From a candidate division KSB1 bacterium (GTDB taxonomy: Bacteria; Zhuqueibacterota; Zhuqueibacteria; JANLFK01; Oleimicrobiaceae): a stretch of 64,000 nucleotides of DNA. Every line of letters begins with the position of its first letter. Position 1 is the first letter of the stretch. A program made the position numbers and the translations under genes. Below are positions 52,703 to 55,900 of the stretch, in pieces. Under the pieces are notes generated by a model, which saw only the letters and a list, made by a program, of their open reading frames with translations, ran no database searches and had not been told where the DNA came from. The stretch lies in contig JANLFK010000005.1 of assembly GCA_024655945.1 (NCBI GenBank), forward strand, positions 186,317-250,316, read 5' to 3'.

Positions 52703-53485
52703 CTAAGGCTGTTGGCGCTCCATCATCTTCATCATGTCCTTCATGCTGGGGCCCTTGGGCTTCGCTTTCTTGGGGTCAAACAGGTCATCCGCCAGGCCGG
52801 TATTGACCTTTGCCGAGGTCACGCGCGTGGTACTCGCCAGCTTGCCTTCGATATAGACATCCGTGCGGAAGGGGATCTCAAAGTCTTTGTGCACGGCGCG
52901 GAAGTCAGAGCACTGCACGCTCATCGGCTTTTCCATTCCCTCGGCCTTTCCCTCGGCCTTGACCAGGAGAAAGGCATCCTTGTCAATCCACAGTTTTGAG
53001 AAGGGCGAACCTTCCTTGGGTGTACCTTGCACCGCATAGCAACTGCGGCCGTTCACCTTCTCCTCCCCTACCACGCGCGCATCGCTGGTTACCCGATCCC
53101 ACCATTCCCAGTCGCTGGCGTACTTCTCGCCCTCCTCCCTGGGCACCTTCTGCGTGCCCATCATGGGGGAGACCAGCCAATAGTCCTTGCCATCGCCGAT
53201 GACGATATTCTCCATCTTACCCATACCCGGCGCGAGCTCTGTCTGCACCTCGGCACGGGACTTGTCACCCTTGGTGTAGATCGTCATCTGCGACTGTATC
53301 TTCCCCTGTTCGGTGATGGTCTCCATCACCTGCTGGAGGGTCAGGTCCTTGATCTCGGCCTGCAACCGCTCGTGACGAGCGCGGGCCTCCTTGACCAAGC
53401 CTGCCCAGTCGATCGCCGTGGCCACACCGGCGATTGCTATGCACAACCCCAGGGCGGCAGTAATCATCAGGCTGCGGTTCCTCAT
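52703..53485 (-). CDS. LolA-like outer-membrane lipoprotein-sorting protein homologue
   Basis: A 260-residue exported protein with signal MRNRSLMITAALGLCIAIAGVATA. The mature part is a beta-rich LolA/LolB-like fold (SQMTIYTKGDKSRAEVQ; DYWLVSP; SKLWIDKDAFLLVKAE; DVYIEGK) and ends in a Met-rich tail. The pattern matches the COG2834/DUF4412-like group, which handles lipids or lipoproteins in the periplasm. GGAG precedes the ATG. It stands alone, between the opine dehydrogenase operon and the methylase pseudogene. Confidence 0.7.
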   Translation of the reverse strand: MRNRSLMITAALGLCIAIAGVATAIDWAGLVKEARARHERLQAEIKDLTLQQVMETITEQGKIQSQMTIYTKGDKSRAEVQTELAPGMGKMENIVIGDGKDYWLVSPMMGTQKVPREEGEKYASDWEWWDRVTSDARVVGEEKVNGRSCYAVQGTPKEGSPFSKLWIDKDAFLLVKAEGKAEGMEKPMSVQCSDFRAVHKDFEIPFRTDVYIEGKLASTTRVTSAKVNTGLADDLFDPKKAKPKGPSMKDMMKMMERQQP

Positions 53486-53627
53486 GGTTCACTCCGCGTT
53501 AGGTGAGAATCATGCGCCGGGGCTCAGCCCGGCAGCGGGAAAATCATGACCTCAACGGCACCGAGCTCAGCCCCTGCTGCCGAGGCGAGCGAAAGGAGTC
53601 GGGGGAGCACTCTGCTGGGGCGGAGGG

Positions 53628-54043
53628 CTAGGACGTTGCTTTCTTGCGCCTGCCAACATTATACCTGGCTTTGGGTTCGCGTATGGCGGGCAACTCATCC
53701 AACCCCGACAAGTCTCTCCCGATGACCAGCCCCCTCATTGTCGCGTGATGGGTGTTTTTCATCGGAATCAAGCGCATCTGAAATCCATGTGCCGTCGTGC
53801 CATTTCTTTTACTTCTTCCGCTTCGTCATAAGTCATCAAAAAATCGCCCACGAGCGACTCACAGATCGTGAAGAGACGCTCGTGATCAAGCTCGTGATGT
53901 TTATAGAGTCGTTTGCCGGCCTTCTTTCCACCGGGATAGCGGAAAGGACTTCGCTGGGGAACGGATGCGACATTCACCGGGCGGAGTAGTACCATCTCGT
54001 CAGAATATTCAGGCAATAACGGGAGTTGCCTCTGCGTCCCCAT
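53628..54043 (-). pseudogene. D12-class adenine DNA methyltransferase, internally deleted and frameshifted
   Basis: The frame opens with an N-terminal motif of D12-class N6-adenine methyltransferases (SPFRYPGGK) and jumps directly to their C-terminal part (AGKRLYKHHELDHERLF; GDFLMTYDEAEEVKEMA). Roughly 150-200 residues, including the DPPY catalytic region, are missing. The first frame stops at 53768 (ending MDFRCA). In another frame the C-terminus continues as FQMRLIPMKNTHHATM and VIGRDLSGL to a TAG at 53628. Removing two bases near CACATGGAT restores the expected reading RHGFQMRL. The gene lies 2 bp after the NotI-like endonuclease gene, of which it was surely the partner. It cannot make an active enzyme. 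Confidence 0.85.
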
Positions 54044-54045
54044 GG

Positions 54046-54933
54046 TTAAAACGGCCTCTCGATAGTTTGATTCGTTGGAGGCGTTTCCAAGTGCTCGTCG
54101 AGTTTTTCCTGAAGCAACTTGATGAAATCCTCCATCCTCCCGGGCGACGGGGTGGTGATGGCAAGCAGGGCAGGCTCAAATTCAGTAAAAACCTCATCCA
54201 CCTTCGTCAGATAATATCGCCCTACCCCATGCCGCTCTTCCACGCTCAGCTCCCAATCATAGATGAGCCACGCAATATCCGCACCACTTTTCGGAACCCG
54301 TTTCAGAGCGGGTAAAGTGGCAAAGAAACTTTTGTTCAACGCCACGGCTATTTTCTTTTTCCAACTGTGCAAGATTCCACCCTTGTAAACAAGCTGAGGA
54401 ACAAGTCTTTTTCGAGAAGATGAAAGGTAATCGGGACGAGGATAGTTCGGCTCGCCAGACCAATCCATAGAAGCCCTGCTTTGTGGATTGCCCATGTAAT
54501 ACTCGAATGGTTCACGGACGTTGCCGAAAATATAGACTGCTTGAATCTCAAGGGCACCGAAGTCAATAACCTTGCCACTATCGTCATATGCGACAAGAAC
54601 CACGTCAATGTTTCCCGCAGACTTGCCATGAGCATCATTTAAACGAACCTCAGTCAGAGAAGTCCACTGTGTTCCCTCCCCCAAAAAGAAAGCTGCAGCA
54701 TGGTCGGCTATAATCCAGTCCTGACGAAATCGGATGGGACAGGTAATGACAGGATCGTTGTCATGATAGATGCTGCACACACCGAGAGGGTTCTTTGCCT
54801 TGTCTTTTGTGCAATTCAGCACCTTGTTGCTGAAAGGGCAGAGACGAAGGGAGCGGTATCGCCTGGCTGTCTCGGTTTGGTCCTCAATCAGGTAACCAAA
54901 GACCTCTGCCAGTGGCTGTCCACCACGATTCAT
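54046..54933 (-). CDS. NotI-family type II restriction endonuclease
   Basis: A 295-residue protein with the layout of NotI-like enzymes. An N-terminal Cys4 metal site (C32, C41, C53, C65, in LCPFSNKVLNC...GVC...TCPIRF) corresponds to the iron-binding site of NotI. The PD-(D/E)xK core is NID (D110) followed by ALEIQA (E129, Q131), as in NotI. Recognition sequence cannot be deduced. The region is AT-richer than the surroundings and uses less GC-rich codons, suggesting acquisition. GGAAGG lies before the ATG and a promoter is at 55023-54995. Its neighbouring methylase is broken, so either protection comes from elsewhere or the nuclease is inactive. Confidence 0.85.
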   Translation of the reverse strand: MNRGGQPLAEVFGYLIEDQTETARRYRSLRLCPFSNKVLNCTKDKAKNPLGVCSIYHDNDPVITCPIRFRQDWIIADHAAAFFLGEGTQWTSLTEVRLNDAHGKSAGNIDVVLVAYDDSGKVIDFGALEIQAVYIFGNVREPFEYYMGNPQSRASMDWSGEPNYPRPDYLSSSRKRLVPQLVYKGGILHSWKKKIAVALNKSFFATLPALKRVPKSGADIAWLIYDWELSVEERHGVGRYYLTKVDEVFTEFEPALLAITTPSPGRMEDFIKLLQEKLDEHLETPPTNQTIERPF

Positions 54934-54994
54934 GGTAGGTCCTTCCTAATCATCTCACTTCCCAGCGTGGGCATATAAACAAACCTTCAATTGA

Positions 54995-55023
54995 AATATA
55001 GGCCTATGCGGGGAAAAAGTCAA
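54995..55023 (-). promoter_or_regulatory. Sigma70-type promoter of the restriction locus
   Basis: Minus strand: TTGACT (55023-55018), 17-bp spacer, TATATT (55000-54995). The predicted start near 54988 falls in the palindrome TTCAATTGAA, a possible operator. Confidence 0.8.
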
Positions 55024-55339: not shown

Positions 55340-55900
55340 TCACAACGCAGCGCTTGCGCCAACTCGCGAGGCTACCCCCTTGGCAGCCAAGCCACGGCTG
55401 CGTACTGCTTCTTCCAGCACCCTCTCCAGGCGTCCGCGCACTTCCACCAGCACCAGCTCCTCGCCATCCGCGGCAATGACGAAAAGGGCATCGATACGCT
55501 CTTTGCGCAGATGCGCAAGCACCATCGTCGCCTCTTTCCGGCCTTTGACCTTGACAATCGGCTCATAGCCTCGCCTGGTCAGGCTTCGCTCCACTGACTT
55601 GGGTATCATCCCGGCCTGCTCGCCGCATTCGCGCAGTTGATAGAGGCCCACCTGCACGCTGCGGATGTCCAGCAGCAGGGCCGCGGCTTCATCTCCGTGG
55701 GCAGCCACGTTGGCGACGGCTCCGGTCAGCCACATGGAACCCGGCCCCAAGCTGAGCTGGAACACCGTCTTTACCTCTTTTGCCCCGGAGGCGCGCAGGA
55801 CCGTGTCGCGCACATGGCGGAAATTGCGATCGACGTCTGCGCACCCGGCCACGGCAATTGCCGCCACCAGGAGCAGCAGGCCTCTGCGGACTATGCTCAT
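55340..55900 (-). CDS. Small lipoprotein, last gene of ECF sigma operon
   Basis: A 186-residue lipoprotein (lipobox AIAVAGC). The rest alternates strands and helices: TVFQLSLGPGSMWLTG, an ADGEELVLVEVRGRLE strand pair, and an Ala-rich end. The length, position and partial resemblance suggest a diverged DUF4252-like protein like its neighbour, but this is not certain. GGAGGAG precedes the ATG. It is separated from the upstream DUF4252 gene by 13 bp. Function unknown; it could be a target of the sigma factor. Confidence 0.65.
   Translation of the reverse strand: MSIVRRGLLLLVAAIAVAGCADVDRNFRHVRDTVLRASGAKEVKTVFQLSLGPGSMWLTGAVANVAAHGDEAAALLLDIRSVQVGLYQLRECGEQAGMIPKSVERSLTRRGYEPIVKVKGRKEATMVLAHLRKERIDALFVIAADGEELVLVEVRGRLERVLEEAVRSRGLAAKGVASRVGASAAL

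Follow-up and report, generated by a model that had tools for sequence, protein, structure and literature searches.

In the genome of a candidate division KSB1 bacterium, an open gene for a NotI-like restriction endonuclease lies beside the remains of a D12 class adenine methyltransferase gene. How can the first have been kept when the second was destroyed? A sequence-only reading of this DNA had proposed a restriction system in decay, and it had offered three escapes for the cell: the nuclease is inactive, another methylase protects the sites, or the sites are avoided. The locus lies in a window of 64,000 nucleotides, which is the whole stretch of DNA that was analysed (contig JANLFK010000005.1). 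The two genes, called R and M here, and the lesions in M were found at these positions.

54046..54933 (-): NotI-family (PF12183) restriction endonuclease gene (R), 295 uninterrupted codons, identified by Pfam, profile, fold match, and core residues
53628..54043 (-): what is left of a D12 class N6-adenine DNA methyltransferase gene (M), split over two frames and covering residues 1-37 and about 219-318 out of 318
53912..53940 (-): deletion junction in M, where 552 bp (184 codons) between the short direct repeats (C)CGGTGGAAAGA are missing
53785..53792 (-): frameshift in M, a 2-base CA insertion before the C-terminal part, relative to L001, L023, L024, L025, L063, and L096

The product of R matches the NotI family in Pfam at 9e-66, with 222 bits against a curated cut-off of 22. 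The four cysteines of the Cys4 motif (C32, C41, C53, and C65) and the catalytic core (D110, E129, and Q131) are present, and they are near-invariant in an alignment of 86 close relatives, the window being counted in. A single-sequence phmmer search of the PDB with R gave only chance matches; it was the family profile, built from 13 relatives of R, that recovered the crystal sequence of NotI (3bvq/3c25) at 2.2e-10. An alignment with NotI had been proposed as a check on R, and it can be made. The profile aligns 3bvq/3c25, and an AlphaFold model of R (pLDDT 87.5) matches the fold of NotI 3c25 in Foldseek with an E of 1.8e-11 and a TMq of 0.66. A Shine-Dalgarno-like GGAAGG stands ahead of the start codon.

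What is left of M begins at 54043, two bases past the R stop codon. Intact sister copies with 82-89% identity are available for comparison. A genome of the same class (G035) holds an intact R-M pair, with an R that is 89% identical to that of the window and a methylase (G035/L001) that matches PF02086 at 3.4e-10. Further intact pairs were found in Roseilinea, Pyrinomonas, and a Thermus plasmid (Thermus brockianus pTbrSNM4-1c, R 72% identical). With the intact G035 methylase as the tblastn query, three pieces were recovered in two frames, corresponding to G035 residues 1-37, 219-266, and 266-318. The best piece scores 2e-23 against a profile of intact methylases, so the match is not due to chance. 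Measured against the intact methylases of both G035 and T. brockianus, M of the window lacks residues 38-221 and has its C-terminal part in another frame.

The deletion is in frame and is placed near 53924-53932, between two repeats that encode GGK. Both repeat copies read CCGGTGGAAAGA in L023, and the window junction reads CCCGGTGGAAAGAAGG. A junction of this kind is expected after slippage at short direct repeats or recombination between them. The missing segment of 184 codons (552 bp) has a counterpart in all 6 close relatives examined, and both AdoMet motif I (FAGGG) and the DPPY motif IV fall within it. A D12 methylase without motif I and DPPY cannot methylate. Since both are gone, the product of M cannot methylate, and what is left is not a functional D12 methylase (PF02086). 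With M destroyed, the locus no longer holds a complete type II system of an intact R and an intact cognate M. The CA insertion, near 53786-53791, was judged against six relatives. The piece of M ahead of this frameshift is still 92% identical to that of G035, and the loss of M is therefore recent relative to the split from G035. The sequence-only reading had described M as destroyed, which the deletion, the frameshift, and the tblastn pieces in two frames bear out. Its positions for the frameshift (53770) and the deletion (53920) were right within about 20 bases.

The two genes lie together in a short stretch that differs from its surroundings.

53554..54994 (-): whole foreign cassette, 1.44 kb, recognised by the empty site in congeners G020 and G021 and by a drop in GC
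54995..55023 (-): TTGACT-17-TATATT, which resembles a promoter and is conserved ahead of the lolA-like gene in both G020 and G021
52703..53485 (-): host LolA-like gene (PF17131), now downstream of the cassette
55340..55900 (-): host DUF4252 gene, the upstream neighbour, from Pfam and congener comparison

Congener G020 has about 30 bp in place of window positions 53554-54994, with 84% DNA identity on both flanks, and the same site is also empty in G021. The GC content is about 47-49% inside the cassette against about 62% outside. The cassette is evidently a horizontally acquired type II R-M pair, consisting of a NotI-family nuclease and a D12 methylase. It begins directly behind the -10 of the conserved host promoter-like sequence. 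A promoter scan by itself is at chance level, and the case for this promoter rests on its conservation in both congeners. Because it stands directly in front of R, R should still be transcribed. The lolA-like gene now lies 1.44 kb from its conserved promoter (window 52703-55023), and its expression may now depend on read-through.

The closest relatives are found in Candidatus Roseilinea, Roseiflexus, Anaerolineae, Pyrinomonas, and Thermus. Several of these groups are hot-spring organisms. The family is also present in Nitrospirae, Planctomycetes, Chlorobi, Methanothrix, and two viral contigs. The survey maps a widely transferred NotI-like/D12 family across bacteria, methanogenic archaea, a plasmid, and viral contigs, and no characterised member of this family was found. 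Among the 86 close relatives, with contig-edge loci left unscored, an unbroken R is followed by an unbroken D12 M in 64. A broken R beside an intact M was found at 8 loci (L033, L039, L049, L054, L063, L082, L096, and L099), and a clearly broken M beside an open R was found in the window and in L050. A loss of M is uncertain at three loci: L040 has an N gap, L080 an inversion within M, and L087 an R whose C-terminus is replaced. There is a stop in R of L043, where M is cut by the contig end, and both genes are damaged in L081 and L085. Five further loci are cut by contig ends, and some of the stops in the survey could be assembly errors. A broken R with an intact M is commoner than the converse, but by itself the 8:2 ratio of broken R to clearly broken M does not reach significance, and loci in which R has been wholly lost escape a search pattern that requires the R N-terminus. 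No conserved methylase-free clade of R was seen among the surveyed relatives.

Details of three loci follow. In L050 (5001-6392, Nitrospirae isolate HyVt-268), an independent deletion in the D12 M removes about residues 73-214 and ends just before AGGKKAGKRLY. The R of L050 is open and NotI-like, and it carries G103W and P179Q. L004 (1354-2193, from G074 of the same class) contains a NotI-like R with the catalytic change E129C, a stop near the end, and no adjacent methylase. In Pseudomonas phage vB_Pae_U8 (L157:544-2669), a C5 methylase adjoins a NotI-family endonuclease that is annotated only as a hypothetical protein.

Is the nuclease itself still functional? It had been described as intact with its Cys4 site and D110/E129/Q131. 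The open frame and these residues were confirmed, but that verdict was reached because the core residues alone were judged, and radical changes appear when R is compared with the 86 relatives. At columns that are at least 95% conserved in this alignment, R of the window deviates by P39L, F84L, and S136F; the R proteins of G035, L023, L025, and L063 have zero deviations at such columns. P39L and S136F are two radical changes at near-invariant sites. P39 is within the Cys4 loop. S136 is located five residues past the catalytic ExQ, between it and the invariant G137, and the serine is shared even by three relatives as distant as about 30% identity. At least two radical changes at such columns occur in only 2 of the 64 intact-pair R proteins, and in one of these, L030, whose M is intact, a Cys4 cysteine is gone. 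Radical changes in R were found at 4 of 6 loci with a damaged or missing M against 6 of 64 intact pairs (Fisher p 0.003), the M-damaged grouping having been chosen after the data were seen; L050, with its own M deletion, and L004, with E129C and no M, are examples.

The substitution rates were also compared. Polarised N:S changes are 20-22:29-30 on the window branch against 5-6:28-32 on the G035 branch (Fisher p 0.005-0.03), and the same comparison with four outgroups gives p 0.21. In a three-taxon codon model with two near outgroups, omega is 0.13-0.15 on the window branch against 0.06 (p 0.03-0.05); with the distant outgroups L024 and L025, the difference is not significant. The average omega is far below 1, which argues that R was constrained over most of the branch. 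The rates are suggestive of strong constraint for most of this time and of relaxation only lately. Despite its core residues, the window nuclease is probably not intact in function.

We consider it fairly probable that this is a recently decaying, acquired R-M cassette in which nuclease activity was lost or much reduced before M was lost or at about the same time. The cassette would have been acquired horizontally and would have inserted where the lolA-like transcript begins. Missense changes would have abolished or greatly lowered the nuclease activity, either first or about simultaneously, and the best disabling candidates are P39L, within the Cys4 loop, and S136F, beyond the catalytic ExQ. 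The methylase would then have been dispensable and could have eroded quickly, through the core deletion between short direct repeats and through the frameshift as a second, separate lesion. The decay proposed in the sequence-only reading is supported by the two lesions in M, the open frame of R, and the empty site in congeners. Among its three escapes, an inactive or weakened nuclease is the best supported, by the radical changes relative to the 86 relatives. Two features count against a dead nuclease: it has kept every catalytic and Cys4 residue, and its reading frame is uninterrupted.

It is also possible that the nuclease is active and that a methylase encoded elsewhere protects the sites. 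Methylases were searched for in the genome, a 97.7% complete draft in 26 contigs. The search for other D12 or cytosine methylases, suggested beforehand as a check, returned neither: no second D12 methylase was found in the genome by Pfam or with an alignment of 11 sequences of the cognate family, and no C5 methylase was found. An orthologous M elsewhere in the genome, as in separated R-M systems, was not found. Other classes are present, with N6_N4 methylases at four loci, one HsdM-type, and one Eco57I-like, and separated R-M systems are documented (PMC3488263). Protection in trans is conceivable on these grounds, but a methylase of another class would need the same specificity, and in 64 of the 86 close relatives an unbroken D12 gene lies next to this R. 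Protection from elsewhere is unlikely. Two of the genome's other modification loci were recorded separately. At L109:3330-4951 (C1 about 344.6-345.6 kb), a type III modification gene lies in two frames, split near a G-run, and adjoins a BPTD_3080-type restriction subunit; the split gene could be a pseudogene, phase variation, or an assembly error. Eco57I/N6_Mtase-like matches extend over several frames at C18:20249-21414 (L158, L159, and L161), perhaps another broken methylase. The site of an active nuclease could instead be absent or very rare, as has been proposed for PacI (cited in PMC3488263). Palindromes were counted in an 864-kb sample of genome stretches, together with two whole-genome pattern counts. 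Every 4- and 6-bp palindrome occurs in the sample, so the idea that the sites are avoided fails for these lengths as far as complete avoidance is concerned. TAGCGCTA occurs once in the 3.94 Mb genome against 5 and 9 times in congeners, and TCACGTGA occurs 6 times genome-wide against 12 and 24, but both were picked from 256 8-mers, so their depletion is no evidence by itself. Both are still present in the genome and were rejected as avoided sites. A rare site is quite improbable as the answer. CTAG is strongly depleted in the same sample (145 seen, 1276 expected). In the PDB, the intact methylase had only a marginal match, from which no specificity can be inferred. That the nuclease is still active in a lineage without its methylase, with the site nearly purged or an unrelated methylase class having taken over, is doubtful as a whole. 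If true, the locus would show a type II system in the middle of a change of antidote.

R may not be expressed, or cleavage may be tolerated through repair. A short stretch upstream of R is alike among relatives and has diverged in the window, and a solitary R was not lethal in the case of PaeR7I (cited in PMC3488263). However, the congener-conserved promoter directly upstream and the GGAAGG before the start codon speak for expression. Since the host promoter would still transcribe R, a weakened protein is more likely than silencing through loss of the promoter, and we regard absent expression or tolerated cleavage as rather improbable. An assembly artefact, or a strain mixture in which most cells have an intact methylase, is suggested by the draft state of the assembly (26 contigs) and by the direct repeats that flank the deletion. 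At only about 12 bp, these repeats are much shorter than usual assembly k-mers, and the frameshift, caused by a 2-base insertion, is a lesion apart from the deletion. Moreover, the missing middle of M is found nowhere else in the assembly and there is a parallel M deletion in L050, which makes such an artefact very doubtful. The low omega and the open frame could also mean that the nuclease was retained because it serves some other function, such as that of a DNA-binding protein. This is scarcely credible, since the recent methylase loss accounts for the low omega and the surveyed relatives include no conserved clade that lacks the methylase.

The cassette can be compared with known systems. 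NotI (PDB 3bvq/3c25) shares PF12183, the Cys4 motif, the D/E/Q core, and the fold with R of the window, but the identity is about 15% over the fold alignment and the window protein is shorter. NotI cuts GCGGCCGC, a site without adenine. The recognition sequence of the window family must therefore differ, since its partner is a D12 adenine methylase. The pairs of T. brockianus pTbrSNM4-1c and G035 have the same arrangement, R then M with ends adjacent or overlapping; their methylase is intact, whereas that of the window is destroyed. PacI is likewise an endonuclease without a cognate methylase, but it has the HNH fold, and the explanation proposed for it is site absence. Ershova et al. (2012) reported 272 solitary endonucleases in 1040 genomes, with 11 of type II beside corrupted methylases, and weighed the same explanations: inactive R, another methylase, no sites, and sequencing error (PMC3488263). 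The window locus is a new example of this class. It has a full-length R, a corrupted M within 4 kb, no cognate M found elsewhere in the genome, and 64 complete orthologous pairs elsewhere. What is new here, compared with that class, is a resolved history for one case (the lesion, the empty site, the intact sister copies, and the substitutions in R) and a concrete disabling hypothesis that is testable with the sister enzyme. The death of a restriction system is unusually well resolved at this locus, with its acquisition, its lesions, and a testable order of loss.
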